Positions 18,739 through 36,485 of a stretch of 57,785 bases of DNA are shown here, piece by piece; within the stretch, counting starts at the first letter, position 1, and each line of letters begins with the position of its first letter. The notes below the pieces were generated by a model, which worked only from the letters and a program-made list of their open reading frames with translations, made no database searches and had not been told where the DNA came from. Position numbers and translations under genes: made by a program. Origin of the DNA: Bacteroidaceae bacterium (GTDB taxonomy: Bacteria > Bacteroidota > Bacteroidia > Bacteroidales > Bacteroidaceae); the NCBI GenBank assembly GCA_017526905.1, contig JAFXQT010000045.1:1-57785 (forward strand), written 5' to 3'.

Positions 18739-18788
18739 ACGAGTGAAGATATAAAACGAAATGTTGAACATCCAAAATGACTAAAGAT

Positions 18789-21700
18789 ATGAAAACAACG
18801 AAATATATTTTCCTCGCACTCCTCGCAGCGCTCCTCATGGTTCCTACCATCGGACGGGCGCAGAACAGTAATACACTGAACGTAGAAGCAGCGGGCACAA
18901 TTCTGGGCCTCGACTGCTCTGTGGCAGCCAATAAGACTGCTATTGAGAGTTTACTCTTCACCAGCACATCTGTCTCTGCGACGGACGATGGCACACAATA
19001 TACGTTTGAGTTGCAGTGCAACACTAATATTATCCCTGCTAATGTACAACTTGGTACGCTGACTGTGAACGGTGGCGCTGCCCAGATTGGTATTCCAACT
19101 CAGGAAACCACCGCTGGAGGTAAGATTGTCATTGTGATTGATAATGCAGCTGCCGATCTTACCGCTCATACCATCGAGGTAACGGGCTATACGCCGCATA
19201 CCTTCAGCCTGACCCTCTCTGATCCGGAGATGTCCACTGCCACTGAGCAGAAGGTGAACCTGACGGTAGAAGACCAAGTGGTTTCGAGCCTCACCTACAC
19301 TGAGACATCTACCCCTTCCATCAATGACCTCTTCGTCGTTTCGGGCTTTACCTCCGGTTCAACGCCTGCCCAACGAAATGTCATGGTGTCTGGTAAGGAA
19401 GGCACCATCTATTATGGTTCCACCGACAATAAGAATTGGGACAACTTTACCCAAGTGAAGCTGCCCGCTTACGATTGGGATGGCGATAATACAGGTGTTA
19501 TCACCAACGAGGCTGACTACACTCCCAAGAAGAGCTACGGTCACACAGACGCACTCACCGTGCCCTTCACCTTCGCTTCTCCTTATTATGGTAAGTTGGC
19601 CACATTCACTTTCGCCAACGAGTTTGATGCTTCTGCTATCACGCCCGATGCAGCTACCTTTGACATAGGTTCGAACACCTGGACGTTCACCCTTCCCGAT
19701 GCCGCCCGTGCCACCATCAGCAACGCCACCTTCACCGTCACCAAGCGCGATGTCAACGACGCTCTCGTCACTGCCGAACTTACCGGCTATGACAGCAAGG
19801 ATGGCGATGTATATGTTTACGAATACACGGGCGCAGACATCACACCCGGCATCACGATAACCGATACGGAGCGTACCTACGATCTGGTGCTCTCCACCGA
19901 TTATAATGCCCTTGACGATGTCACCAAACAAGCCCCCGGCCTCTACACCATCACCCTCCAAGGCACAGGCTACAACTACACCGGATCGCGCCCCATTCAA
20001 TGGCGCATCGTCAAGAACATCAACCACAGTGACTTCACCGTCACCGTCGATCCCGCCGTCTATACTGGCACTGAGTTCACCCTCACCGACCTGAAGAGCA
20101 AGGTGATCGTCAAGCATCAGGGTACCGAACTGACCGAGGGTACTGACTATGACTTGACGTTCAAGACCGGTCACCAGCCCTTCATCGATGCCAAGACCTA
20201 TGTTGAGGAGCTCGTCATCACCGGTAGGATTGCAGCCGGTATCAGCGGCACACGCTATGCCGACTTCACCATCAAGCCCAAGGACATCGCTGCAACCACC
20301 ATCACTGCCGAGGCTGCCTATACCGGCTCCGCCATTGATCCTGCCGAGAACGATGGTGCCACACCGCCTACCTACTCATTTATTAAAGTGGAGGATGGTA
20401 CCACCACCCTGACCGCCACAAAGGATTACACCGTGGCCGTGGCTGCAGGCACCTATCAGAATGCCGGAACATACGACAATGCCGTCACCATCACAGCTGT
20501 GGATGGCAGCAATTACACCGGCAGCAAGGTCGTTCCCTTCGTTATCACGGGCGGTACCAGCATGGATGCAGCTGCCATCACAATCACTGTGGATCCCGTG
20601 GTGTATAAAGGCGCGGAATATACCCTCGATGAGGTGAAGGCTAAGGTGGTTGTCAAGAATGGTACAACCGAACTGGTCGAAGGAACTGACTACATCCTCA
20701 CCAAGATTTCCACCTACATTGATGCCAAGACCTATACCAACGACATCATCATCACTGGTAATGGCGAATACTACGGCACCCGCACTGCCGACTTCATCGT
20801 GCAGCCCAAACCCATCACCCTCTGCGATGTCACTGCCGGTACCACCTATACCGGTTCGGATATCGACCCGGCCAAGAACGATGGTGCCACACCGCCGGTC
20901 TATGATTTCATCACGGTCAAGGACGGTGCCACCACGCTCACAGCCACTGTGGATTACACCGTTACCGTTGCCACGGGCACCTATAAAGATGCTGGCACTT
21001 ACGCCGATGCCATCACCATCACAGCTGTGGATGGTGGCAACTACACAGGCTTCCAGGTTGTCGATTTCGTCATCGACCATGCTGGCTTCGATGTAGCCAA
21101 GGCACTCGTAGAGGCCAAGGATGTATATACCGGCGCTGCACTGCCTCCTGTGGCTACTAACCCTGCTGAACCTACCGATAACATCGTGGTGAAGCTGGGC
21201 GATAAGACTCTGGTTTATGGCACTGATTATACCTTTGTCAAGAATGAGGCTGACGCCAACTATCTTGAAGCCAAGACTTACGAGAACGCCATCACCATCA
21301 CGGGTATTGGCGAGTACTATGGTAAGCTCAATGCAGCCTATGTGATCCAGCCCCGTGCTTTTGCCGATGCTGACATCACGATCACCGTGCCCGACCTGAA
21401 CTACGATGCCACCGACCTGACTCCTGTTCCTGAAGTGAAGTACCAGACCAACGTTGTCGATCCCAACAACTACACCTTCACTCCTGCCACCGTGAAGGAG
21501 GCCGGTACCTACACCCTCAGCTTCGAAGGCCAGTACAGCCTCACCGGCACCAACACTGCCGAGGTGAAGGTGCTCAAGGCCATGGACGGTGCTTACACCG
21601 ATGACTTCGTCATCACCATCGTGCCCGAGACTCCCATTGCTTTTGACGGCACCAATCCCGTCGAGCCTGAGATTAAGGTGACCGACAATGGTAAGGAACT

Positions 21701-23036
21701 GGTTGAAGGAACTGATTATACAGTAGCATACTCGAACAATACCGCCGAGGGCGAAGGTACGGTGACCATCACTGGTGCCGGCGTCTATAGCGGCACGAAG
21801 AGCATCAACTTCCCCATCGTGGCTGCCTACTTCACCGAGGGCGACTTCACCTACCACTACATCAACAGTACGACTGTAGCTGTGGGTACTGAGACGCACG
21901 ACGTGGCTACCACTTCGACTGACCCGAACATCACAGTGCCCGATGTAGTGAACCACACCATTGGTTCGACTCCCTATCCGTTCACTGTGGTGGGTGTCGA
22001 GACGGGTGCCTTCAAGGCTCTGACCACCATGTTCACGCTCACCTTGCCTGCCACCATCGAATTCATCGAAGATAAGGCATTCGAGGGTTGCGCTGCACTG
22101 CGTTGGATTGATGCCTCTACCGCTACGGCCCTCGTGCCCAGCAGCCTGGATCGTACTATCGAGGCTACCCCGTTCTACGGCGTGCCGGCACAGGCACTGG
22201 TGTTCCTCACTGACAATAAGGTGGAAGGCGAAAACTACGTCTATATGGTTGGCGCAGCCGACTTCCGCTGCGATGTGTTCAAGATCTTTGACGACGTCAG
22301 CGGCAAGCAGACCACTTTCACCCAGACCGACGGTTACCAATGGGCTTACGAAAACCCGTACGAGTTCAAGGCCAATACCGTGGTCAACACACGTCAACTC
22401 AGTGGCGAACAGCACTACACCACTTGTCTGCCTTACACTATGGCCATCCCCACTGGCGTGAAAGCCTACCAGCTCGTCGCCTCGACCGATCCCGCCATCA
22501 ACTCAGCCAGCACCCTCATCGGCTTCACCGAGGTAACTGGCAACTTGGAGGCCTTCAAGCCCTACGTGCTCATCCCGACAGTGAGCGGTCAGTTGCTCTG
22601 CGCCGGCGAGACCACCATCCCCGCAACGGTTGGCGTGTTCGATGATACCGACGGCCATCACCTCAACAAGGTTCCTGCTACTGCAACTGCCGGTGGTTAT
22701 GTCATGTACGGCACCATGCGCTTCAAGGCAGGCGATGGCAAGCAGTATATCATGCAGGAGAAGAACGAGTGGAAGCTCACCGACGGAGCCGGTTGGAGCG
22801 GCGGCACTGGTGCCTGCGTACTGCCCATGCGTGCCTACATTGCCAAGGAGGGCGAATATCCTGTGAAGAAGTTCCTCACCGCCACCTATGGTACCACCGA
22901 GCTGAACGAGCTCTTCGACCAGCTGGTTGAGGAGGAGAACGCCGACCGCTACGACATTGCTGGTCGCAAGGTGAGCGGCAACCTCCGCAAGGGCATCTAT
23001 GTAGTCAATGGCAAGAAGGTTGTCATGGGCAAGTAA
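18789..23036 (+). CDS. giant secreted Ig-like repeat protein with type IX-like C-terminus
   Basis: A 1415-residue exported protein. Signal peptide [20 protein letters not shown]. Residues ~25-410 are beta-rich with no family recognised. Residues ~416-1020 hold about seven MBG/YDG-like Ig modules of 80-95 residues with the marks VYTG, LxEGTDY and GxYxGxxxxxFxI. An a+b pair is repeated as c+d. Near 1060-1110 lies a BspA-like leucine-rich fragment ([33 protein letters not shown]). The end ([21 protein letters not shown]) resembles C-terminal sorting domains of type IX cargo. It is 50 bp after the second fimbrillin, so it may be a pilus-associated adhesin or a separate surface protein expressed with the pili. 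An alternative ATG lies 12 bp upstream at 18777. Confidence 0.8.
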
Positions 23037-24074: not shown

Positions 24075-25595
24075 ATGGCAAAGAAAGCATTATTGATGAT
24101 CCTGGACGGCTGGGGCATCGGCGATAAGAGTAAGGGCGATGTGATCTACCAGACACCCACCCCCTACATGGACTACCTGAACGCTACCTACCCCCACAGC
24201 CAGCTGCTGGCCTGCGGCGAGAACGTCGGTCTGCCCGACGGACAGATGGGCAACTCTGAGGTGGGGCACCTGAATATCGGCGGCGGCCGCATCGTCTATC
24301 AGGACCTGGTTAAGATCAACCGCGCTTGCCGCGATAACAGCATCATGCAGAATCCCGAAGTCGTCAGCGCCTTCGAGTATGCAGTCCGCGAAGGCAAGGC
24401 CGTCCATTTCATGGGCCTCACCTCCAATGGCGGCGTTCACTCCTCGCTGGAGCATCTGTTCAAGCTGTGCGAGATTTCCAAGGAATACAAGGTGCGCGAA
24501 ACATATATCCACTGCTTCATGGACGGCCGTGACACCGACCCCAAGAGCGGCCGCGGCTTCATCGCCCAAGTACTGGACAAGTGCGAGGAGACCGGCGCTA
24601 AGATAGCCAGTATCGTGGGCCGTTTCTATGCCATGGACCGCGACAAGCGTTGGGAACGTATCAAGTCGGCCTATGACCTCCTCGTGCATGGCGAGGGCGT
24701 GCAGGCCACCGACCTGCTCGAAGCCATGGAACTGAGCTATGCCGACGGCGTGACCGATGAGTTCATCAAGCCCATCAACAACGCCACCTGCGATGGCACC
24801 ATCAAGGAGGGCGATGTCATTATCTTCTTCAACTACCGCAACGACCGCGCCAAGGAGCTCACCATCGTGCTGACCCAGCAGGACATGCCCGAGCAGGGCA
24901 TGCACACCATCCCCGGCCTGCAGTATTATTGCATGACCCCCTACGATGCTTCGTTCCAGGGTGTGCATATCCTCTTCCCGAAGGAGAACGTCGAGGACAC
25001 GCTGGGCGAGTACATCAGCAGTAAGGGCCTGAAGCAGTTGCACACGGCCGAGACGGAGAAGTACGCACACGTCACCTTCTTCTTCAATGGCGGGCGCGAG
25101 CGTCCGTACGAGGGCGAGGACCGTGTGCTGGTGGCTTCGCCTAAGGTGGCCACCTACGACCTGCAGCCCGAGATGAGTGCCTTCGAAGTGAAGGACAAGC
25201 TGGTGGCTGCCCTCAAGACAGCACAGTACGACTTCATCGTGGTCAACTTTGCCAATGGCGATATGGTAGGACACACCGGCGTCTATTCGGCCATCGAGAA
25301 GGCTGTGGTGGCTGTGGATCAGTGCGTGAACGAGGTGGTCGAGACAGCCAAGGCTGCCGACTATGAGGTTGTGATCATTGCCGACCATGGCAATGCCGAC
25401 AACGCCCTCAACCCCGACGGCACCCCCAACACCGCCCACTCGCTCAATCCCGTTCCCTTCATCTACGTCACCGAAAACAAGCAGGCCAAGGTGGCCGATG
25501 GCATCCTGGCCGATGTGGCTCCGTCCATCCTGCACATCATGGGCCTGGAACAGCCCAAGGCCATGACCGGCCACTGCCTGATTAGCGAGGATTAA
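24075..25595 (+). CDS. gpmI: 2,3-bisphosphoglycerate-independent phosphoglycerate mutase
   Basis: A 506-residue Mn-dependent glycolytic enzyme interconverting 3- and 2-phosphoglycerate in the cytoplasm. It starts [12 protein letters not shown], with the metal-binding Asp. [12 protein letters not shown] holds the catalytic serine (Ser61). [24 protein letters not shown] and [11 protein letters not shown] supply further substrate and metal ligands. Full length for the family, alone between its promoter and a strong terminator. Confidence 0.97.
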
Positions 25596-25644: not shown

Positions 25645-25678
25645 AAAAGGCTGTTGGCGAGAGCGCTAACAGCCTTTT
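25645..25678 (+). terminator. gpmI intrinsic terminator
   Basis: AAAAGGCTGTT-g-GCG pairs with CGC-t-AACAGCCTTTT around a 4-nt loop. A/T tails on both sides. Confidence 0.88.
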
Positions 25679-25730
25679 CCGTATCTGTACTTTTCCACCC
25701 TTTTCTTATGGCCAACCCGCAAAAAGGCTG

Positions 25731-25738
25731 TATCTTTG
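25731..25738 (+). promoter_or_regulatory. -7 element of the three-gene envelope locus
   Basis: TATCTTTG followed by C, 34 bp before the ATG at 25772. No clear TTTG at the -33 distance. I see no other promoter before 35771, so the three genes probably share it. Confidence 0.6.
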
Positions 25739-25771
25739 CCGCAGAAAAAACAGCGGAAACCTTCCCTGCAC

Positions 25772-27985
25772 ATGAAATCCAAGCTTCACATACTGCTTCT
25801 GCTCACGCTGATGGGCTTGTTCACGGCCTGCGGGTCGGACAAGGCCGACGTGCATCCGTTGCAGCAGGCCGAGACGCTGATTGCCCACTATCCGGACAGC
25901 GTCAAGGCCTATGAGCGGTTGCTGCGCAGGGCTGTTGCGCAGGGCGAGGCACAGCACGACTGGCGTACCGCCTCGCGTGCGCTGCTGCTGTTGGCCGCAC
26001 AGGTGCAGTGGACCAACGAGGTCGAAGCCCTTGCGCTGGCCTACCAGGCGTTGGAACTGCACGACCGTGGCACGAAGGATGCCAAGGGGCGCCTGCAAAT
26101 ACAGTTGGCCATTGCCAACTATCTGCAGCAGACCGACGACATCGCCCGCGCGCGTACCTTATATAATCAGTGCATGCACACCGCCGAACGGTTAGGGCTG
26201 AACGACAGCCGTAACCTCGCGCTGGGGCACCTGGCCCAGCTGAGTCTTGTGGACAACCGCCCGCAGGAAGCCTTGGCTCTGGCGCAGCAAATGCGCCTGT
26301 CCGGTTCGGCCGACAGCCAGATGGAGCCCCTGTTCATTCTGGCCAACTGTTACATGCAGTGCAACCTCTTAGACCAGGCCCGGCAGGTGTATGAGCAGTT
26401 TGATACCTGCCAGAATGCCAAGACCCGCTACGTGGCTTTGCGCCATCTCACCGAGATAGCCATGCTGCAGGCCGATTTCCCAAAGGCTTCCTCCACGATG
26501 GATTCGGCCTTTTCCTGTGCCGAAGTCGTCTTTTTCCAGGCCATGAAGCAGAAGGACGACTACTTCCGCACCACCCTGGCGCAGGAACGTGAGGCCGAAC
26601 ACCTGAAGGCCCAGCGCCAGCAAACGTTCTGGCTGTTGCTGTTCGTGCTCGTGGTCGGCGTGTTCTTGGCGGTCATCACATTTATCGTGAGCAGGCACCG
26701 CCGTGCCATCCAGCAGCAGCGCCTGGCCGCCGAGCAGCACGAGCGCGAAGTGGCCGAGCAACGTCTGGAACACCAGGACACCATGATTCATATCCTTCAG
26801 AACTTCATCATAGAGAAGAGCGAGGTCATTCAGCGCCTGCGGGCCGAAGGCGACGAGAAGAAACAGCTCAGTGCCGACGACTGGCAAGATATGGAACAGA
26901 CGCTGGACAGCATCACCGACGGCTGGGTAGGCCGCCTGCGGGCCCAGCACCCCGACTTCCGCGAGGAGGACATCCAGCTGTGCATGCTCACCCGCATGAA
27001 GCTGACCAACCAGACCATTGCCGACCTCTATTTCATCACCCCGTCGGCCGTGAAGCACCGCAAACTTAAACTGAAGAAGGAAGGCTTTGGCGAGGCCAAT
27101 CCCGACGTGAAGCTGCACGATGTGCTGGCGCGCCTGCCCCTCCTGCTGCTCTGCCTGCTCATGCCCCATGGCCTGCGCGCCCAGCAGGTGCAGACACTCT
27201 GGCAGCCCACGCCGCTGTTGGAGCAGAGCCAGGGTGTGCATGTGACGAGCGCAGAATGGGACAGCCGTCACACCCGCGTGGACTTCCGTGTGGCTCATGC
27301 CGATGCCGCCACGTTCACCTTGCGCCCCACCATCTGCCTCTCCGACGAGGACGGCACCCTGCACCCCTGCGTGGAGGCTCGTGGCCTACGGCTTGGGGTT
27401 CCTACGGCGGTGCCTGCCGACAGCGCCCTCACCTTCACCTTGGTGTTTGATGCCCTGCCGCCCCTCACACGCCTGTTCGATATTATCGAAGATACCGTGC
27501 CGCAGGCCCGCCGCTGGATGGGCATTCACAGCGCCCTGCGTGCAGCCCGCTTCCCCGTGATGCGCGGCCGCCGTTCGGCAGCCGACACCATCCGTGCATC
27601 CGCCCGGCCCATCATCCGCCGTTTTGGGTTGCAGGCACTCTTGGATTCCGCCGATCCCGATTCCGTCTATCGGCAGCTCCAGCCCCAACTGTCGGTCTAT
27701 CGCGACTATGTGGCGTGGAAGTGGCGCCTCACGCCGGCCGAGGTCTATGAGCTGATGTCGCGTCCGGCCACCGTAGCCCAGCCCGTAGCTGGTGGCGCTG
27801 CCAAGCCGTCGCAGTACCGTCCGTTGTCGCGTCCGGCTTCGGACACTTCAACGCCGCCGGCAGCGGCCGCCCCCTCCAAGCCCCGTAAGACCAGCTTCTT
27901 CAGCCGCCTGTTCGGACGGAAGCAGAAAGCCAAGCCCATGTCCCGCTTCGAGCAGAAGATGCTGCAGGAGCAGCGCAAGTACTAA
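25772..27985 (+). CDS. TPR-membrane-HTH regulator fused to an exported-type domain
   Basis: A 737-residue protein with an unusual order. Residues 1-20 form a lipoprotein-like signal (LLLLTLMGLFTAC). TPR-like repeats run to ~270. A membrane helix spans 286-307 (FWLLLFVLVVGVFLAVITF). A helical linker leads to a helix-turn-helix at ~399-441 (EDIQLCMLTRM, TIADLYFITPSAVKHRKLKL), typical of Bacteroidales TPR regulators, which normally end about here. Instead the frame goes on: a perfect signal-peptide-like stretch (LPLLLLCLLMPHGLRAQQ, 455-472), a beta-rich domain (VDFRVAHADAATFTLRPTIC, FDIIED, GIH) resembling an N-terminal domain of secreted Bacteroidales thioredoxin-like proteins, a helical part and a basic tail. 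Either the HTH lies between two membrane spans or two genes have merged. The next gene starts 6 bp later. A TTG extension to 25736 is disfavoured. Confidence 0.78.
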   Translation: MKSKLHILLLLTLMGLFTACGSDKADVHPLQQAETLIAHYPDSVKAYERLLRRAVAQGEAQHDWRTASRALLLLAAQVQWTNEVEALALAYQALELHDRGTKDAKGRLQIQLAIANYLQQTDDIARARTLYNQCMHTAERLGLNDSRNLALGHLAQLSLVDNRPQEALALAQQMRLSGSADSQMEPLFILANCYMQCNLLDQARQVYEQFDTCQNAKTRYVALRHLTEIAMLQADFPKASSTMDSAFSCAEVVFFQAMKQKDDYFRTTLAQEREAEHLKAQRQQTFWLLLFVLVVGVFLAVITFIVSRHRRAIQQQRLAAEQHEREVAEQRLEHQDTMIHILQNFIIEKSEVIQRLRAEGDEKKQLSADDWQDMEQTLDSITDGWVGRLRAQHPDFREEDIQLCMLTRMKLTNQTIADLYFITPSAVKHRKLKLKKEGFGEANPDVKLHDVLARLPLLLLCLLMPHGLRAQQVQTLWQPTPLLEQSQGVHVTSAEWDSRHTRVDFRVAHADAATFTLRPTICLSDEDGTLHPCVEARGLRLGVPTAVPADSALTFTLVFDALPPLTRLFDIIEDTVPQARRWMGIHSALRAARFPVMRGRRSAADTIRASARPIIRRFGLQALLDSADPDSVYRQLQPQLSVYRDYVAWKWRLTPAEVYELMSRPATVAQPVAGGAAKPSQYRPLSRPASDTSTPPAAAAPSKPRKTSFFSRLFGRKQKAKPMSRFEQKMLQEQRKY

Positions 27986-27991
27986 CCCCAA

Positions 27992-30900
27992 ATGTCCAAT
28001 GCAGATACATTATATAATAATATGAGACGTGTTATGTGCCTGATTGATTGTTGCCGCTTCGCTTCGCGTATCGCGTGGCGTGGTTGTGGGGTGGGGCTGC
28101 TGTGCCTCGTTGCCCTTCTTGCTTTCACTCCGGTGGCCATGGCCCAGGAACCGGCCGAGGCCAGCATCGTGCCTGTTGCACCGCATCTCACCGTGTCGGC
28201 CCGTGTGGTCGATGCCGATACGGGCGAACCCTTGCCGCTGGTGGGCGTGTATGTGTCGGCCGAAACGAACACACTCACCAATTTCGATGGCGAGTTCAGC
28301 CTCACGGCGCCCCCCGATGCCGATGTGCGTTTCACCTGCATCGGCCGCTCCACCTTGACCTTCAAGGCTTCAGCCTTGCCGCCGGTGATCCGTATGTCCA
28401 TGCTGGCCAAGACCATGTCCGAGGTCACGGTGGTCAGCCTTGAGAACCTGTTGGTGAAGCTTGCCAAGAAGATGGAAAAAGGTTTCCAGCGGCACCGGAC
28501 GGACAATGCCTTCTACTTCTACCGGCAGACCTCCGTGATGGGTGGCAAGCAGGACATTGTCGAGGCCTTCACCAATGCCCAATCCGCCGTGAACCTGCGC
28601 AATGTGGAGTTCGTCAGCGGTCGGCATGGCGCCTTGTCGCGTCAGCGCTGGGAGCAGTCGGCCCTGCGCAACATGAACCTGCACCACATCATCGAGCTGG
28701 GTCCCATGACACTGCAGGTGCCTTTCTGGAACCGCCTCGTCACCCCGCTGTTGCCCGATCCTTTCCCCACCGTCCGTGGGCAGCGTGACGGCAAGTCCTT
28801 CTCGCTCAACTCCTACACCCATTCGGCCATCAGTTCCTTGCAGACCATCTACCATATCACGGCCGACGAACTTTCCGACGGCGATGAGCATCTTCTTGCC
28901 ATCCATCTCCGGCTGCGCGATGGCGTCAAGCTGGAGCAGCCCGTCATGACAGGCACACTCTACGTCAATCAACGCGAGCTCCAGGTGCTGGCTTTCGATG
29001 GGCAGGTGGAGAACATGCAGCTGCAGTTGCGCCGTTCCGAGTTGCAGGGGGCCATCAACATACCTGTGGCCATGAAGTTCCATATCGACTACCGCTACGA
29101 CCGCAAGTATGCCGAAGTGGCCGACCTGTCCATGGATACCTCGTGGGAGATTCAGGGTTCTGGCGATGACAAGCTCCCCCTGTTGGCCCAGCTGAACCAG
29201 TTCCAGACCCGCACCCTCCTGTTCAATGTCGAGCGTCAGAAACGGCTGCGCCGTGGCAAGTCGCGTGGCTATCGCGTCAGCGAGAATATGCTTGCTGCCG
29301 TTGCCGAGGCCGGCTACGACTCCACCCTGTGGGCCAACACCGATGTGGTGAAACGAACGGCCGAGGAAGAAGCCATTGCCAACGGCACACTGGACCGCGA
29401 GCAGCAGTTGCGCGACTCGCTCTACGCCTATGTCGGCTCCCTCTCGCCCCTGGCCCGTCTGGCCGACCGCCAGCGCCGCTTCGGCAACGTCATTCCGCAG
29501 GAGAAGGTGTATGTACACATGGACAACACCGGCTATTTCCTGGGCGACACCATCTGGTTTGCCGCCTATCTGCGCAAGACCAACACCGACACACCCAGCC
29601 GCATGAGTCGCGTGCTCTATGCCGAACTGTGGAACCACGACGGCTATCTGGTTGAGCGCAAGCTCATCGAGATGACCGACGGGCGCGGTCACGGCTTCTT
29701 TGCCCTGCCCGACACCCTCTACAGCGGCTACTTCGAGCTGCGGGCCTACACCCGTTGGCAGCTCAACTGGGGCCAGACCGAGCATCCGCACAACTGGGGC
29801 ACCGAGTACCTCTTCTTCAACAAGGCCATGGCCAAGGACTTCTTCCGCGACTATGAGAAGCTCTACTCGCGCGTGTTCCCCGTGTATGACAAGCCCAAGA
29901 CACCGGGCGACTTCTACAAGGACATGACCTTCCGTCCCCTGCGTCGCTACTTCAAGACCGAGCCCAAGGCGCCCGAACTGCGCCTCAGCCTCTTTCCCGA
30001 AGGGGGCAACCTGGTGGCCGGCGTGCCCTGCCGGGTGGCTTTCGAGGCCGCCACCGAGGAGGGCGAGGTGCGCGAAGGCACCCTTCAGCTCATGGCAGGC
30101 CAGCAGGTCGTTGCCACCGCCAGCACCGTGAACCGCGGCCGTGGCACCTTCAGTTTCACGCCCCAGGCCGGGCAGAAGTACGAGGCCGTGTTCCGCGACC
30201 AGCGGTGGCATGAGTTGCAGAAGGCTGCCGCCGCATCGGCTGCCCGCGCCGAACGGCGGGCGCTGCAACAGAACATGGAGAAGCACGAGGCGCGGCAGGA
30301 CATCAAGGGCGTCGAGCCCGAAGGCGTGGCCCTGCAAGTGGATCTGGACACCCTCAGCGGCACCTGGCAGTTCCGCATCGCAGCCTGTGGCAAGGCCGCC
30401 AGCCAGCCGCTGGGCATCACGGTGATGAACGAGGGGCGGCTTGAGCAGTATTGGGAACTGAACAACCCGCAGCCCAGCGCCGACTTCCATCTGCCGGCTT
30501 CCGCCCTTGCGGCCGGTGTGAACCAAGTCACCGTGTTCGACTCCATCGGCCATATCTATGCCGACCGCCTCTTCTTCGTCACCCGTCCGGACCTGACGCA
30601 ACACACGCTGCAGTTCACGGGCCTGAAGAGCCAGTACCAGCCCTTCGAGCCCATCGACTTCGATGTGACCGCAGCCGACGTGCTGCCCGATATGACCATC
30701 TCGCTGGCTGTGCGCGATGCCGTACACACCGACAACACCTTCGACTCGGGCAATATCATGACCGAGATGCTGCTTTCGTCCGAGATCAAAGGCTTCGTGC
30801 CCCAGCCCGACTACTTCTTTGAGCGCGACGATGCCGAGCACCGCACCGCCCTGGACCTGCTCATGCTCACCCAGGGTTGGCGCCGCTTCAACTGGCAGGA

Positions 30901-32566
30901 GCAGGCGGTGCCCGGCGCGTGGGACCTGACCCACCCGGCCGAGTACACCCAGATGGTGTCCGGCACGGTGCACCGCTATTCCACCCTCGATTTGGAACTC
31001 CGGCTGGGGCTGCTCTCCAATGTCGATGACTTAGAGCGTGAATACTACGAACATTACAGCTACGGCCGGACCAACTACGCCCGTGGAACCCCTATTGTGG
31101 GCTATGGGGAGTCGTACGTCGGCCAGCTGATGTCTCAGGACGAAGCAGCCAACCGTTCTTCGCGCCCGCGCTTCCGCTTCCTCAGCGCCAACGAATACAC
31201 CACCGACAGCTACATCAACCTGCAGGATGTGTACCAGAGCCGCTCCCGTCTCGGTGTCATAGCCGACACCCACAACGGCATCTATGGCTTGTACGGGCGT
31301 GAGTGGGGCAATGCCGACTACAACGTGCTGCGCTTCAAGACCGACAGGCACTACCGCCAGTTGCAGCGCGACCGCATGCACAAGACCGCCCGCCAGTATG
31401 TCGAGGAGGGCAACCTGAAGCACGACGTCACCGTGCATGCCGAGTTCGTCAACCCCTTCGATACCAAGAACGTGCTGGTGGGTGAGGCCATGACGCAGAA
31501 CGGCCGCTTCCTCATCGACCTGCCCCGCTTCACCGGTCAGTGCTATTTCCACCTGGCAGCGGCCGACACCACTCAGTGGAAGGCCAAGCGCGCCCGTTTG
31601 CGCCTGCGGAAAGGCCTCAAGGAGGACAAGACCGCCTGGGTGCGGCTACAGACCATGTCGGCCGACGACTGGCCCATGCCGCGCGTGGGTATGACCAGCG
31701 ATGGCTCTTCGGGGATGGGCGGTGGTGGTATTACTGAACCCATCACTATTGCTGGCAAGATGCCCGATCTGCCGGACTTCTACGTGCGCATCAACTTCCC
31801 CTATCCCCGCTGGATCAAGCCCTACACCTACTATCAGGTGCACAACGCGCCCCTGCACGAAGGGCGTCTGCCTTCCAGCCTGCAGACCGACGGCGTCCGA
31901 CTGCTGGACCAGGTCACCATTCGTGCGCGCCACGGCGGTCTGCGCCGCTTGGACTACAGCAAGCCGGCCTATGTGCTGGATGCACAAGAGGCGGCCAACC
32001 TGGGCATTGATGCCGGCATGAGCCAATATGCCTACCTGGCCGGCCATGCGGCGCGAGATGCTGCCATGGTGTTGGTGGGCGACATGGGCATGGCACGCCG
32101 TCCCGAATATTCCGTCTCCATCGACCAGATGGGGCCCGGCTACTGGTGGGACAACTACCAGCAGCAGCGCAATGGCCTGCTGTGCACCTTCGACAAGTTC
32201 TACATCTACACCGACTACTCGCCCCGTCGCGAGGGCGATGAACGCTTCGAACAGGCCAACCAGCCCGAGGTGCGTGTAGATATGCGCCGCAACCCCGAGG
32301 GCGAGGACCGCGCCGTGTTCATCAACCGCCACATGGTCCTGGACGGCTTCGCCTATCAGGAGGACTTCTACCACCCCGACTACAAGCGCAACCCGCCCGT
32401 CGAGGGGCAGAAGGACTACCGCCGCACCCTGTACTGGAACCCCGAACTGAAACTGAACGACCGCGGACAGGCCCACGTACACCTGTTCAACAACAGTCAA
32501 ACCACCTCCGTCCTGCTCGAAGCTGAAGGCCTGAACAGCGAGGGCGGCCTGATGTGGGGCAGATAA
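27992..32566 (+). CDS. giant exported carboxypeptidase-regulatory/macroglobulin-like protein A
   Basis: A 1524-residue envelope protein. A long signal peptide ends VAMAQ; the start may be ATG 27992 or, ten codons on, 28022. Residues ~65-135 are a carboxypeptidase-regulatory-like beta domain (VVDADTGEPLPLVGVYVSAE). Residues ~150-480 are beta-rich and vaguely DUF5686-like. From ~500 the protein aligns with the next gene: EKVYVHMDNTGYFLGDTIWF, GYFELRAYTRWQLNWG, FPEGGNLVAGVPCRVAFE (macroglobulin MG2-type strands), a plug-like segment (AYVLDAQEAANLGIDAG) and YVYTDYSPRREG-type C-terminal blocks (here YIYTDYSPRREG). I recall MG2-containing plug-domain proteins of this sort in Bacteroidales without a firm role. 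No thioester CGEQ motif was seen. It lies 6 bp after the fused regulator. Confidence 0.78.
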   Translation: MSNADTLYNNMRRVMCLIDCCRFASRIAWRGCGVGLLCLVALLAFTPVAMAQEPAEASIVPVAPHLTVSARVVDADTGEPLPLVGVYVSAETNTLTNFDGEFSLTAPPDADVRFTCIGRSTLTFKASALPPVIRMSMLAKTMSEVTVVSLENLLVKLAKKMEKGFQRHRTDNAFYFYRQTSVMGGKQDIVEAFTNAQSAVNLRNVEFVSGRHGALSRQRWEQSALRNMNLHHIIELGPMTLQVPFWNRLVTPLLPDPFPTVRGQRDGKSFSLNSYTHSAISSLQTIYHITADELSDGDEHLLAIHLRLRDGVKLEQPVMTGTLYVNQRELQVLAFDGQVENMQLQLRRSELQGAINIPVAMKFHIDYRYDRKYAEVADLSMDTSWEIQGSGDDKLPLLAQLNQFQTRTLLFNVERQKRLRRGKSRGYRVSENMLAAVAEAGYDSTLWANTDVVKRTAEEEAIANGTLDREQQLRDSLYAYVGSLSPLARLADRQRRFGNVIPQEKVYVHMDNTGYFLGDTIWFAAYLRKTNTDTPSRMSRVLYAELWNHDGYLVERKLIEMTDGRGHGFFALPDTLYSGYFELRAYTRWQLNWGQTEHPHNWGTEYLFFNKAMAKDFFRDYEKLYSRVFPVYDKPKTPGDFYKDMTFRPLRRYFKTEPKAPELRLSLFPEGGNLVAGVPCRVAFEAATEEGEVREGTLQLMAGQQVVATASTVNRGRGTFSFTPQAGQKYEAVFRDQRWHELQKAAAASAARAERRALQQNMEKHEARQDIKGVEPEGVALQVDLDTLSGTWQFRIAACGKAASQPLGITVMNEGRLEQYWELNNPQPSADFHLPASALAAGVNQVTVFDSIGHIYADRLFFVTRPDLTQHTLQFTGLKSQYQPFEPIDFDVTAADVLPDMTISLAVRDAVHTDNTFDSGNIMTEMLLSSEIKGFVPQPDYFFERDDAEHRTALDLLMLTQGWRRFNWQEQAVPGAWDLTHPAEYTQMVSGTVHRYSTLDLELRLGLLSNVDDLEREYYEHYSYGRTNYARGTPIVGYGESYVGQLMSQDEAANRSSRPRFRFLSANEYTTDSYINLQDVYQSRSRLGVIADTHNGIYGLYGREWGNADYNVLRFKTDRHYRQLQRDRMHKTARQYVEEGNLKHDVTVHAEFVNPFDTKNVLVGEAMTQNGRFLIDLPRFTGQCYFHLAAADTTQWKAKRARLRLRKGLKEDKTAWVRLQTMSADDWPMPRVGMTSDGSSGMGGGGITEPITIAGKMPDLPDFYVRINFPYPRWIKPYTYYQVHNAPLHEGRLPSSLQTDGVRLLDQVTIRARHGGLRRLDYSKPAYVLDAQEAANLGIDAGMSQYAYLAGHAARDAAMVLVGDMGMARRPEYSVSIDQMGPGYWWDNYQQQRNGLLCTFDKFYIYTDYSPRREGDERFEQANQPEVRVDMRRNPEGEDRAVFINRHMVLDGFAYQEDFYHPDYKRNPPVEGQKDYRRTLYWNPELKLNDRGQAHVHLFNNSQTTSVLLEAEGLNSEGGLMWGR

Positions 32567-32591
32567 ACAAAAACAATATAAACAACCAAAC

Positions 32592-35500
32592 ATGAACACA
32601 ATGAACAGAAACCGTTGCATGCACCTGTGGCGCCCCTGCTGCGCTGCCCTCTTGCTGGGGCTGCTCCTGCTGCCTTCGGCCCTCCGTGCACAGACCAAAA
32701 TCCCCACCACCCTCGACGGGTGGGCCGACCGCCTCACCCGTTTTGGCAAGGGCATCCCCCAGGAGAAGGTGTATGTGCACATGGACAACAACTGCTATTT
32801 CCTGGGCGACACCATCTGGTTTGCCGCCTACACGCGCCGCACCGACCGCGACCTGCCCTCTGGCGTGAGCAGGCTGCTCTATGCCGAGCTGTTCAACCAG
32901 GACGGTTATCTGGTTGAGCGCAAACTCATCGAGATGGTGGGTGGCCGCGGCAGCGGCTGTTTCGCCCTGCCCGACACCCTCTACAGCGGCTACTACGAGC
33001 TGCGTGCCTACACCCGCTGGCAGCTCAACTGGGGCCAGTACGAGCACCCGCATTCCGTCAAGGTGGAAGAGGAGTTCCAGTCGTTAGCGCTGGCCAAAGA
33101 GTACTACCGCGACTACGACAAGCTCTACTCCCGCGTATTCCCCGTCTATGACAAGCCCCGCACCCCCGGCGACTACGCCCACGACATGACGCTCCGTCCG
33201 CTGCGTCGCTATTTCAAGGACGACGAGCCCGAACCTAAGTTCCAGGTGGCACTCTACCCCGAGGGTGGACGCCTGGTGGGCGGCGTGCCCTGCCGCATGG
33301 CCTTCGAGGGCGTTGACCAAGAAGGTCAGACCTCGCGCGGCCGTGTCGTCGTGCGCGACAAGGCCGGCACCGAAGTGGCCAAGGCCGAGGCCGAGAACCG
33401 GGGCCGTGGGGTGGTGGAGTTCACCCCTCAGGTGGGGCAGAAGTATGAAGTCACCTTCTATTCCGACTCCGTCAACCGCAAGGGCCAGCCCATCGTGGCC
33501 AAGGCCACCATTGCCGACATCCAGGCCGATGGCGTGTCCGTACGTCTCAGTCAGGATGCAGCCCAGGTGCAGGTGCGCCTGGATGCCGCCGGCGCGGCGG
33601 CTGCTACCCAGCTGGGCGTCACAGTGATGCACCAGGGCGTGGTGGAGCGGTATTGGAAGATGGAGAACGGCCAGTGGATGGCAGACAATGCCCCGGCCAC
33701 CGATGCCCGCATCGAGACGAAGACCGACAGCCGTCAGTCCTCCATCTTCAACCTTCAGTCGTCGGCCTTCCAGCCCGGCGTGAACCAGTTCACCGTGTTC
33801 GATGCCGCCGGCCGCATCTATGCCGACCGCCTCTTCTTCGTGCTGTCCGATGCCCAGCTGCAGCCCACCCTCGCCGTGAGCGGTGCCGGGCAGAAGTACG
33901 AGCCTTTTTCGCGCATCCTGCTCAATGTGAAAGCACAGACGGGCGTTCCCTCCGGCACCCCTATCTCGCTGTCGGTGCGCGATGCCACCTATACCGACCC
34001 CGTGTATGACAGCGGCAACATCCTCACCGAGATGCTGCTGGCCTCCGAGATCAAAGGCTTCGTGCCCAACCCCGAGTACTTCTTCGAGGCCAACGACGAC
34101 GAGCACCGCCGCGCCCTGGACCTGCTCATGCTCACCCAAGGCTGGCGCCGCTTTGAGTGGCGCGAGATGGCCACGCCCGGCGTGTTTGAGCTGACACACC
34201 CCAACGAGCAGACCCAAGTGCTGGACGGTTCCGTGCGCGAGTACTATGCCCTGCGCAAGGAGAACACCGTGGACATGATGGTCATGGCCGAGCACATGGC
34301 CTTTATGGGTGCCAACGAGGAAGGCATCCGCGACGAGCTGCAGATGACCTTCGGTGCCCATGCCGACCTCTCGTTCCTGGATACCGAGTCCTGGCAGCAG
34401 ACGATGGATAGAATCGGCGCCGCCGACGCGGAAATCGAGGAGAGCAGCGAAACCACCACTGACCCCACTACCGAGCCCTCCGGCTCGTCTGATGCCGCTG
34501 TCACGGCCAACACCGTCGATGCGCCCACGTGGCTGGATCCGTCGCAGCAGAACATAGGCATGAGTCCCTTCCAGGGCTTCCGCTTCAACCCCTCGCGTGC
34601 CTTCGTCTCCACTGGCAGCACGCTCAGCCGCTCGCGCTCGTCCAACCAGTCGCAGCGCGTGTACTACGGCGGCGTCAGCACCCCGCAGACCAGCCAGAAC
34701 ACCGACCGTCCCTCGTGGCAGCGCCTGCTGCGCGACGAGACCCGCCTAAAGCGCGAAGTGCTGGTGCATGCCTTCTTCCAGCAGCCGGGTTCTGAGGGCG
34801 TGGTAGGCGAGATGACCACCGACAAGGGTCGCTTCCGCATCACCGTGCCCCATTTCTATGGCGAGTGCTATTTCCACCTGGCCGCCTCCGACACCACCAA
34901 GTGGCGCAAGGGACAACGCCACCAGTGGGTGGTGGTGAACGACGACGAGGAGGACGAGTTTCAGGAGTTCTACGTGCGCCTGAGCTTCCCCTATCCGCGC
35001 TTCATCAAGCCCTACAGCTGGTACCAGTGCCACCTGGCACCCTTGGCTTCCGAGAGCCTGGCACAGGACCGCCAGGACGGCTTCGCCCTGGACCGCAACC
35101 TGAAGGAGGTGGTAATCCGCTCCAAGCACGGCGGCCTGCGCAAGTTCGACCCCTCAAAGCCCGCCTTTGTGGTGGATGCCTATGAGGCCCTGAACGCGGC
35201 CATCGACGCCGGCCTGAACACAGGCCGCTTCAATGGCAACGGCCAGTTTGTGTCGAACGTGGCGCGCACCTACATCGGCGACATGAACATGGAGCGCCGC
35301 TACGAGGTGGAGACACGCCACGACGGGCGCAACTCCACCAGCAACGAGACCACCGGCCAGAAGGACTTCTACAACTACCTGTACAACCTGGACAAGGTGT
35401 ATGTCTATACCGACTATTCGCCCCGCCGCGAGGGTAGCACCCGCTTTGAGCAGGCCAACCAGCCCAAGGTTACGGTGGACCTGCGCAAGAATCCCGACGG

Positions 35501-35771
35501 CGGCAAGAATGCCACCTTCCGCGACCGCTATCTTATCCTGAAGGGCTTTGCCGGCGAGGACGACTTCTACCACCCCAACTACGCCGGGCGCAAGCCGGCC
35601 GCCGAGGGCGTGAAGGACTATCGCCGCACCCTGTATTGGAACCCCGACCTGCAGCTGGATGCCGACGGTCAGGCCACCGTCAGTTTCTACAACAACGGCA
35701 AGGAAACATACATCGAGGTGAGCGCCGAGGGGCAGGGCAACGACGGAACCCTGCTCTGGAGCGGCCAATAA
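32592..35771 (+). CDS. giant exported macroglobulin-like protein B (paralogue of A)
   Basis: A 1059-residue protein with signal peptide ...LLLGLLLLPSALRAQ. From residue 58 (EKVYVHMDNNCYFLGDTIWF) it matches protein A from residue 504 to the end; the N-terminal regulatory-like and middle domains of A are absent. Shared blocks: GYYELRAYTRWQLNWGQYEH, YPEGGRLVGGVPCRMAFEG, GNILTEMLLASEIKGFVPNP, LLMLTQGWRRFEW, YVYTDYSPRREGSTRFEQAN, KDYRRTLYWNPDLQL. It has unique low-complexity parts, such as ESSETTTDPTTEPSGSSDA near 620. It begins 25 bp after A, pointing to an old tandem duplication and one transcript. The pair may form a heteromeric envelope complex; this is inference. Confidence 0.8.
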   Translation: MNTMNRNRCMHLWRPCCAALLLGLLLLPSALRAQTKIPTTLDGWADRLTRFGKGIPQEKVYVHMDNNCYFLGDTIWFAAYTRRTDRDLPSGVSRLLYAELFNQDGYLVERKLIEMVGGRGSGCFALPDTLYSGYYELRAYTRWQLNWGQYEHPHSVKVEEEFQSLALAKEYYRDYDKLYSRVFPVYDKPRTPGDYAHDMTLRPLRRYFKDDEPEPKFQVALYPEGGRLVGGVPCRMAFEGVDQEGQTSRGRVVVRDKAGTEVAKAEAENRGRGVVEFTPQVGQKYEVTFYSDSVNRKGQPIVAKATIADIQADGVSVRLSQDAAQVQVRLDAAGAAAATQLGVTVMHQGVVERYWKMENGQWMADNAPATDARIETKTDSRQSSIFNLQSSAFQPGVNQFTVFDAAGRIYADRLFFVLSDAQLQPTLAVSGAGQKYEPFSRILLNVKAQTGVPSGTPISLSVRDATYTDPVYDSGNILTEMLLASEIKGFVPNPEYFFEANDDEHRRALDLLMLTQGWRRFEWREMATPGVFELTHPNEQTQVLDGSVREYYALRKENTVDMMVMAEHMAFMGANEEGIRDELQMTFGAHADLSFLDTESWQQTMDRIGAADAEIEESSETTTDPTTEPSGSSDAAVTANTVDAPTWLDPSQQNIGMSPFQGFRFNPSRAFVSTGSTLSRSRSSNQSQRVYYGGVSTPQTSQNTDRPSWQRLLRDETRLKREVLVHAFFQQPGSEGVVGEMTTDKGRFRITVPHFYGECYFHLAASDTTKWRKGQRHQWVVVNDDEEDEFQEFYVRLSFPYPRFIKPYSWYQCHLAPLASESLAQDRQDGFALDRNLKEVVIRSKHGGLRKFDPSKPAFVVDAYEALNAAIDAGLNTGRFNGNGQFVSNVARTYIGDMNMERRYEVETRHDGRNSTSNETTGQKDFYNYLYNLDKVYVYTDYSPRREGSTRFEQANQPKVTVDLRKNPDGGKNATFRDRYLILKGFAGEDDFYHPNYAGRKPAAEGVKDYRRTLYWNPDLQLDADGQATVSFYNNGKETYIEVSAEGQGNDGTLLWSGQ

Positions 35772-35869: not shown

Positions 35870-36019
35870 CATTACGCTCGCCACCTTTCCGCTCACTGTC
35901 CTTCCGTTCACTGTCCTTCCGTTCACAGCTCTTTCGCTCGCCCCCTTTCCGTTCGCCACCTTTCCGTTCGCTGCCGTTCCGCTCGCTGCTCTTCCGCTCT
36001 CTGCCTCTCCATTGGCTTC
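35870..36019. repeat. 15-bp tandem array, about 10 units
   Basis: Units of the form (C/T)(C/T/G)TTCCG(C/T)TC(G/A)C(C/T)(G/C)(C/T) start every 15 bp from 35870 to 36005. The period is a multiple of three, so it leaves open frames on both strands (repeating FRS or ERK pentapeptides). No start, promoter or homologous domain supports coding. Confidence 0.8.
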
Positions 36020-36087
36020 CACGCGCCCCCTTCCAAAGTTTTTGGATTGGGTCCCACCCCCGACGACTATTGCCCCACGAGAGTACA

Positions 36088-36232
36088 CCCCCAACCTCAA
36101 AGAAAATTATACGTACGTATAAATGGTAGTTGTACGTACGTATAAATAGTAGTTGTACGTACGTATAACCTATAGTTGTACGTACGTATAATCTATGGTT
36201 GTACGTACGTATAATTTCTTTTGAGGTAGGGG
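36088..36232. repeat. 23-bp TACGTACGTA array framed by inverted arms (MITE-like)
   Basis: The palindrome TACGTACGTA starts at 36110, 36133, 36156, 36179 and 36202, exactly 23 bp apart. Spacers of 13 bp begin TAA and end GTTG. The outer arms are near-perfect inverted repeats of ~30 bp: CCCC-AACCTCAAAG... on the left and ...TTTTGAGGTAGGGG on the right. ACA borders both ends and could be a 3-bp target duplication. It has no open frame. Confidence 0.8.
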
Positions 36233-36257: not shown

Positions 36258-36310
36258 AAAGCCCCTTGGCACGGTGCGATGCGTTTTTGCACTGTGCCAA
36301 GGGGCTTTTT
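36258..36310. terminator. strong two-way terminator between convergent genes
   Basis: AAAGCCCCTTGGCAC-g-GTGC pairs with GCAC-t-GTGCCAAGGGGCTTT (one G-U) around an 11-nt loop, then TTTTT on the plus strand. Suits ending protein B (plus) and the GH2 gene (minus). Confidence 0.9.
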
Positions 36311-36353
36311 GGTAGTGGAAAAGAGGGCGGTCGGCTTCACGGGCGTGGCAGGC

Positions 36354-36485
36354 CATGGCCGGCTCGTTTGGCGTGTGCCTTGCCAGAAGCTGCAGGCCAT
36401 GGCAGACTCGTTGGGCGTGTGCCTTGCCAGAAGCTGCAGGGCATGGCCGGCCCGTTGGGTGTGCGCCTTACTTGCTGCTGAGGGT
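36354..36485. repeat. 44-bp tandem repeat overlapping the GH2 stop
   Basis: Units start with CATGGC at 36354, 36398 and 36442. Units 1 and 2 share GGCGTGTGCCTTGCCAGAAG; unit 3 is diverged and contains the GH2 stop codon (36468-36470) and the last codons. The array seems to have arisen by duplication of the gene's 3' edge outward, or inward growth into it. Confidence 0.75.

Follow-up and report, generated by a model that had tools for sequence, protein, structure and literature searches.

A conserved promoter-Reg-Mid-A cassette carrying a giant protein with macroglobulin-like features in a Bacteroidaceae bacterium

Three kinds of described systems come closest to the locus analysed here. Regulators of the SusR/BT3442/DUF6377 type combine TPRs, a membrane helix and a helix-turn-helix (HTH) part; a group of Bacteroidota proteins of about 790 amino acids (aa), known by their domains only, combine an MG2 domain with a TonB-type plug; and the bacterial alpha-2-macroglobulins (ECAM/YfaS) presumably contain MG2 and A2M domains as well as a thioester motif and domain, all within a longer core. 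The locus lies on contig JAFXQT010000045.1 of a Bacteroidaceae bacterium described as gut-type, in a stretch of 57,785 nt, which as a whole is referred to as the window. It encodes a putative membrane regulator (Reg), a small protein (Mid) and two giant proteins (A and B). Reg resembles the SusR/BT3442/DUF6377 regulators in its single helix and in its C-terminal half, and possibly also in the order of its parts; it differs from them in that it scores far below the family cut-offs, carries a lipobox leader and has a giant as its neighbouring client. A and B match the proteins of about 790 aa over the full length and have an MG2-like part and an A2M-like C-terminal domain as these do, but they are longer, carry a hypervariable insert and lack a detectable plug, and A has an additional N-terminal module (the N-module). 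The MG2-like and A2M-like domains are also found in the bacterial alpha-2-macroglobulins, although both are weak by sequence in the giants, in which the core is shorter and neither a thioester motif nor a thioester domain was found.

No paper on the function of the giant family was among the literature matches listed, as judged from titles and the beginnings of abstracts, and the passages seen of PMC12611786 as well as a term search of PMC12578637 gave no MG2, macroglobulin or plug domain. In this paper, we delineate the regulatory cassette and show that the giants belong to a family that known domains allow one to recognise. Support is good for promoter-Reg-Mid-A as the conserved unit. We propose, at somewhat less than an even chance, that it may be an autoregulated, inducible periplasmic scaffold cassette, to which B would have been added in the genome of the window.

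The conserved unit

The cassette is covered by three open reading frames (ORFs) on the same strand, at 25736-27985 (749 aa), 27992-32566 (1524 aa) and 32592-35771 (1059 aa), which are separated by 6 and 25 bp, in agreement with the lengths and gaps given by a first-pass annotation of the window. The gene calls made by script are longest ORFs, so start codons are approximate, and signal peptides were judged by eye.

25691..25738, + strand: composite promoter block of 48 bp, TTTTCCAC-n32-TATCTTTG, with a -7 box at its end (comparison of the upstream DNA of Reg loci)
25772..27121, + strand: Reg, with a lipobox leader, weak TPRs, a membrane helix (26615-26701) and an HTH-like C-terminal part (Pfam/NCBIfam, hydropathy)
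27122..27985, + strand: Mid, a small protein that shares its ORF with Reg in the window and has a gene of its own in 15 relatives; internal signal peptide, judged by eye
27992..32566, + strand: giant A, signal peptide by eye (ORF and domain scans)
32592..35771, + strand: giant B, core only, signal peptide by eye (ORF and comparison of cores)

The first ORF had been taken for a single fused regulator, and Mid had been missed. Reg corresponds to its first ~450 residues, and the GTG at 27122 is a possible start of Mid. In all 15 relatives that carry both, Reg and Mid are separate adjacent genes; Reg has 461-493 aa (14 complete sequences) and Mid has 252-282 codons from stop to stop, except for one relative with 195 codons, where the called A overlaps Mid. 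The fusion in the window may be either real or an assembly error.

When Mid was searched for in the 139 genomes of the genus (that of the window included), some match was found in 39 genomes and a full-length one in 16 (E<=1.3e-21), including a match of this class in G115 that covers residues 105-284. Every one of the 16 full-length Mid genes lies directly upstream of an A-type N-module, which was found by a separate search, and the order Reg-Mid-A on one strand is kept in all 16 loci; in G018 the contig begins inside Reg, which is interrupted there by the contig end. A 17th locus (L204 of G060) has Reg and A with a shrunken Mid of about 80 codons. Seen from A, 29 loci contain a close A-type N-module (E<=2.4e-109), of which 17 have Reg. 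All 17 fall within one clade of 20 giants (support 97), whose other three members are L200, L213 and L163, the last with only 410 bp of sequence before A, while Reg was not seen in any of the nine close A-type loci outside this clade. The association is therefore a trait of one clade, and probably ancestral to it. The main tree was computed with FastTree on 113 rows; a second one, computed with IQ-TREE in quick mode on 55 rows of our choice, agrees with it on the A clade and the B clade.

The first-pass annotation had proposed that a membrane regulator and two giant clients stand behind one promoter. Its regulatory insight is correct in outline: a regulator with a giant client behind one promoter recurs in 16 genomes, and in one more with the shrunken Mid, even though the action of Reg on the client would still be our inference. 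The unit Reg-A-B, on the other hand, largely fails in the comparison of neighbourhoods, as the B-type giants fetched are mostly located elsewhere. Among 14 Reg-carrying relatives with downstream DNA in view (631 bp only in L203), none has a giant after A; in L210 and L214, A itself runs off the contig. The genomes are incomplete metagenome-assembled genomes, in which contig ends hide some of the neighbours. The presence of B behind A is local to the window genome.

B groups with L220, L221 and L241 (support 100, IQ-TREE), apart from A; a recent tandem duplication giving rise to A and B is ruled out by the separate supported clades. Nevertheless, three of the four known members of this small clade form a tandem with an A-type giant, two of them with the order reversed, which suggests that the pairing of two giants is not wholly fortuitous. 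In L220 and L221 the B relative is followed on the same strand by the A-type giant, which runs off the contig in the former and is split over two ORFs in the latter, and in L241 the B relative stands alone. Frequent neighbours of the fetched B-type giants are a PGM/PMM-family mutase and an APH-family kinase, and others are found close to iPGM. The kinase is at most three genes from a giant in 30 loci, and the mutase, which we labelled GlmM by eye and which Pfam places in the PGM/PMM family, is present in 12 of 20 loci checked. Giants adjoin iPGM in L137, L218, L265 and L266, and are one gene away from it in L021, L139 and L165; the window cassette is likewise beside iPGM, which lies directly upstream and ends at 25595. 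The window genome also has mutase and kinase neighbours at a site without a giant (L264, G000:C67 17636-20420), with 322 bp between the matched parts. Elsewhere in this genome, the end of a third giant is found at a contig edge (G000:C91 1-138).

These observations bear on whether the genes of the cassette are unrelated neighbours that happen to share a strand and short gaps. B adjoins A in no other Reg locus, and the mutase-kinase site, which bears a giant in many relatives, is empty in the window genome, as a chance arrangement might leave it; Reg-Mid-A, however, is present behind a shared promoter block in 16 genomes. A chance neighbourhood of the whole is thus extremely improbable; it is already refuted for Reg-Mid-A, though not for B.

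The promoter block, Reg and Mid

The box TATCTTTGC at 25731, which we take to be a -7 box of the Bacteroidota type, is the sole TAnnTTTG on the + strand between 25500 and 36500, which bears out the earlier suggestion of a single promoter before the ORFs. A scan for sigma-70 promoters, which is ill-suited to the host phylum, gave no sites. The TTG at 25736 overlaps the -7 box, so that the likely start of Reg is the ATG at 25772, which yields the leader with a lipobox (by eye).

All 16 Reg loci with upstream DNA (window included) have TTTTCCAC, followed by TA(C/T)CTTTG 31-33 bases on; when G018 is included, where the 5' portion of Reg lies on a separate contig, the block of 48-49 bp precedes 17 of 17 Reg genes accompanied by A. 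A looser pattern occurs 21 times on both strands of 1.5 Mb of genus loci, namely 17 times before Reg (twice in L160), twice before giants unlinked to Reg (L122 and L242) and twice elsewhere. Across all 139 genomes, the pattern gave 50 matches in 37 genomes, and its reversed control gave 2; 17 of the 50 are before Reg, 2 before giants and 3 before more distant Reg-like genes. Among the fetched giants unlinked to Reg, the block was found in 2 of 18 in Reg-carrying genomes and in 0 of 69 in other genomes, as counted within 350 bp of the called start, over a set that excludes the genome_contigs loci (L006-L029), the distant relatives and one giant at a contig edge, and that holds only part of the giants of Reg-carrying genomes. 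These two giants are evidence independent of the way in which the pattern was made, and they sit just outside the A clades in the tree. In L213, where A has neither Reg nor Mid, a degenerate block is seen by eye immediately before A.

Hydropathy gives a single membrane helix in Reg, and likewise in four of four relatives tested. The TPRs are weak in the window protein, and a TPR is above cut-off in the relative L159. The C-terminal half is distantly similar to DUF6377/BT3442; the scores are below the cut-offs, with 27.1 against 36.7 bits for DUF6377 (Pfam) and, as partial matches in NCBIfam, 21.4 against 480 for SusR and 23.2 against 940 for BT3442, and Pfam gave no HTH match. The TPR part would lie in the periplasm. 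The more distant Reg-like genes mentioned above (L299 in G019:C122, L279 in G060:C49 and L312 in G143:C10) are 33-37% identical to Reg and have the TTTTCCAC...TA(C/T)CTTTG block with a differing middle. Another Reg-like gene, in L014/L231 (42% over its end), stands before an outer-membrane barrel protein and an A-type giant.

Pfam found no family at E<=0.01 in two Mid orthologues. The window Mid, with a signal peptide read by eye, is probably exported. In 23 genus genomes, other proteins, most of them larger, contain stretches similar to portions of the ~150 N-terminal residues of Mid, so its domain seems to be reused elsewhere.

The resemblance of Reg to SusR and BT3442 raises the possibility that Reg is a nutrient sensor and that the giants are helpers of TonB receptors in glycan use. 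The N-module of A contains a SusC-type extension, a plug is present in 5 of 8 distant relatives of the giants (see below), and GH2 genes adjoin the cassette in the window, in L207 and in L208, with GH2 families matching 4 of the 50 neighbours sampled at the other cassettes. That sample takes up to two genes from either flank of the cassettes of 16 relatives, with a minimum length of 200 aa, and the families listed for it are mostly housekeeping ones (LytB, cytidylate kinase, RecJ, RelA/SpoT, RecQ). Neither a SusC nor a SusD family has matches in at least two of the 50 neighbours; the listing gives the first 25 of the families matched (77 in Pfam, 179 in NCBIfam), which leaves room for single matches. 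Furthermore, the GH2 gene in the window is on the opposite strand, GH2 also occurs beside giants without Reg (L137 and L165), and the regulator scores are far below the family cut-offs. We therefore regard a role as a nutrient-uptake accessory as unlikely.

The giant family and its surroundings

28157..29425, + strand: N-module of A, a CarboxypepD_reg domain (SusC-type extension) and a second domain, distantly DUF5686-like in some relatives (Pfam, PDB profile search)
29444..32566, + strand: giant core of A, from the MG2-like to the A2M-like C-terminal domain
32766..33011, + strand: MG2-like domain of B (Pfam PF01835, E 0.0017, below cut-off)
34257..34739, + strand: hypervariable segment of B, a region whose length ranges from 41 to 161 residues over the 26 aligned members
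35601..35768, + strand: A2M-like C-terminal domain of B (RRTLYWNP...; profile match of 99.4% to the C-termini of relatives)

The cores of A and B are 49% identical over about 1000 residues, as had been noticed before, and sequence comparison places the two proteins, which have diverged from each other, in a Bacteroidota family whose ends are MG2 and A2M-like. A candidate for the proposed MG2-type part is seen in both, with scores under the Pfam cut-off (E 0.017 in A and 0.0017 in B); 22 of 26 aligned members match MG2 at E<=0.1, and the domain is above cut-off in three of eight distant relatives scanned (L144, L145 and L149). In a profile comparison, 26 cores matched six proteins of about 790 aa, which come from other families of the order, at 100% (E 1.1e-81, 766 columns). 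The six have MG2, with scores above cut-off in three of them, and a weak CarboxypepD match; five have a plug, which is of the SusC/RagA type in the two scanned against NCBIfam, and A2M matches weakly in two (E 0.021 and 0.084, both under the cut-off). In the core of A and B, the CarboxypepD-like domain that the distant relatives have cannot be made out clearly (34.5% over 27 columns). Contrary to what had been supposed, the last ~50 residues of A and B are not unique: compared with the C-termini of relatives from other families, they reach 99.4% over 51 columns. The stretch YTDYSPRREG is common to the close family and was not seen, by eye, in distant members.

A plug-like segment, which had also been suggested, was not recovered. 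Pfam gave no Plug at E<=0.1 in A, B or the 26 aligned members, and neither Pfam nor NCBIfam matched a barrel or plug family of TonB receptors or SusC in A or B. A plug was found in L144, L145, L146, L148 and L149 and not in L143, L147 and L151. At its place A and B have a segment of a different kind: compared by itself with the true plug of the relatives, this segment reached a profile probability of 0.4%, and a wider cut reached 36% on 19 end columns only (an FYxPxY motif), outside the plug. PDB searches with A, B and the core profile returned only N-terminal extensions of the SusC type, for A.

That extension belongs to the N-module, and a CarboxypepD-type N-terminal extension is present in A only, not in B. 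A CarbopepD_reg_2 match is found in 16 of 16 aligned N-modules, whose profile matches the SusC N-terminal extension in the PDB (E 3.2e-14); four chains of SusC/TonB-receptor extensions were returned, and one chance-level match (E 0.35). Proteins with CarboxypepD_reg and the same second domain, L152 and L153 (830-865 aa) and L156-L158 (380-399 aa), align with the N-module at 29-34%; in the latter three the N-module occurs alone, whereas in A it continues into the giant core. Domain scans did not bear out L152 and L153 as DUF5686 proteins. Moreover, in a clade of eight loci (L171, L172, L173 and L224-L228; support 100), core and N-module are adjacent genes preceded by a sigma factor, an anti-sigma-like gene (so called from its size and place, with no Pfam match saying so) and DUF6108, in this order in 8 of 8. 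As core and N-module are fused in some branches and adjacent genes in another, they very likely act together, and two regulatory set-ups precede them, namely the TPR/membrane/HTH-like one and the sigma factor with an anti-sigma-like gene.

The domains invite the idea of a protease snare, in which cleavage within the hypervariable segment would let the giants bind the protease, in the manner of the macroglobulin bait. The MG2-like and A2M-like domains fit this idea; so do weak matches of the bait-region domain in 3 of 26 members (best E 0.0018), and the segment of 41-161 residues, almost without conservation, is flanked by well conserved blocks, the one before it being very conserved (ALDLLMLTQGWRRF). 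The CxEQ thioester motif, on the other hand, is present in 0 of 113 members, in line with its absence reported before, and no thioester-domain match was found in A, B or eight distant relatives; the hypervariable segment is located past the conserved LDLLMLTQGWRRF block and is missing from the relatives of about 790 aa; and many cores adjoin housekeeping genes. A thioester-free snare is quite unlikely in our estimate.

Alternatively, the giants could be partners in a secretion route, for instance by anchoring large double-glycine-leader proteins or guiding them outward. Two giants stand within export gene sets (L122:1117-11721 and L125:3147-11998), that of L122 being one of those preceded by the Reg-type block. 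The sets comprise a glycosyltransferase-methyltransferase, a GG-leader-like protein (by eye), an outer-membrane efflux protein, HlyD and an ABC transporter with a C39 peptidase, as assigned by domain scan in L122 and by clustering with it in L125. These are only 2 of 81 giant rows, in which some places are listed twice, and no exporter was recognised among the nearest scanned neighbours of the window cassette, which are RNase HII, iPGM, GH2 and LptF/G. A role as an export partner is very unlikely.

A terminator-like site lies past B:

36260..36306, + strand: stem of 20 pairs with a T tail, 489 bp past B (terminator scan)

Such sites are as frequent in the window as in shuffled sequence (8 found against 7.6), and stems of 20 pairs occur in two of the 8. 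An inverted repeat behind iPGM, at about 25645-25680, is terminator-like by eye and was not called by the scan. Tandem repeats of 15/60, 23 and 44 bases occupy 35875-36214 and 36348-36469, from just past B onward. Upstream, 18777-23036 encodes a protein of 1419 aa in which similar segments recur (by eye) and which matches a BspA-type LRR weakly, below cut-off.

Proposed role of the cassette

In the scaffold proposal, the periplasmic TPR part of Reg would sense the state of the envelope, possibly free Mid or a misassembled outer-membrane protein, and its cytoplasmic end would activate the promoter block, leading to more Mid and A. Mid may be either the signal of Reg or a partner of A. A and B would be long, non-catalytic, thioester-free periplasmic scaffolds made of macroglobulin-like domains, and the SusC-like N-module might dock A onto outer-membrane proteins. 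With such docking, the system would serve outer-membrane complexes as a clamp or chaperone that can be induced, and not as a protease trap. The presence of the family in 128 of 139 genus genomes, often next to housekeeping genes, fits upkeep of the envelope more readily than an accessory weapon. Both the task of the giant and its regulation by Reg are conjectural.

Several observations weigh against this proposal. Twelve of the 29 close A-type loci have no Reg, and further relatives of Reg, at 34-36% identity, occur in other genomes. As the block pattern was derived from Reg loci, its presence before 17 of 17 Reg genes speaks for conservation and not for specificity; 28 of the 50 genus matches precede other genes (23) or have no clear following gene (5), and three more precede the distant Reg-like genes. 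The block could be a promoter merely travelling with the operon, its activation by Reg being conjectural, and the two block-bearing unlinked giants could be what is left of an operon after loss of Reg, Mid and the N-module. In addition, several Mid orthologues have a short hydrophobic start without a classical signal peptide, so export is likely only for some, and DUF5686 matches only 2 of 16 N-modules, below cut-off (L166, E 4.9e-7; L171, E 0.0064), the best at 29 against 39.2 bits over about 75 residues, with none in the window N-module.

The same parts could also be arranged as a trans-envelope signalling system, in which Mid would be the ligand or brake of Reg, the thioester-free giants its output, and the regulon would reach unlinked giants via the operator block. 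The hypervariable segment would then be where an attack or a partner reaches the giants, so that the loss of intact Mid or A might itself be the signal. We consider this arrangement distinctly unlikely.

Whether or not the scaffold proposal holds, at least one giant, recognised with residues 568-955 of B as the query, is encoded in 128 of the 139 genus genomes, and its task would bear on much of the Bacteroidota envelope. Which parts must meet can be read from the loci where core and N-module are split and those where they are fused, and the conserved sensor, its small partner and the promoter give a direct handle on the inducing condition and on the task of the giants.

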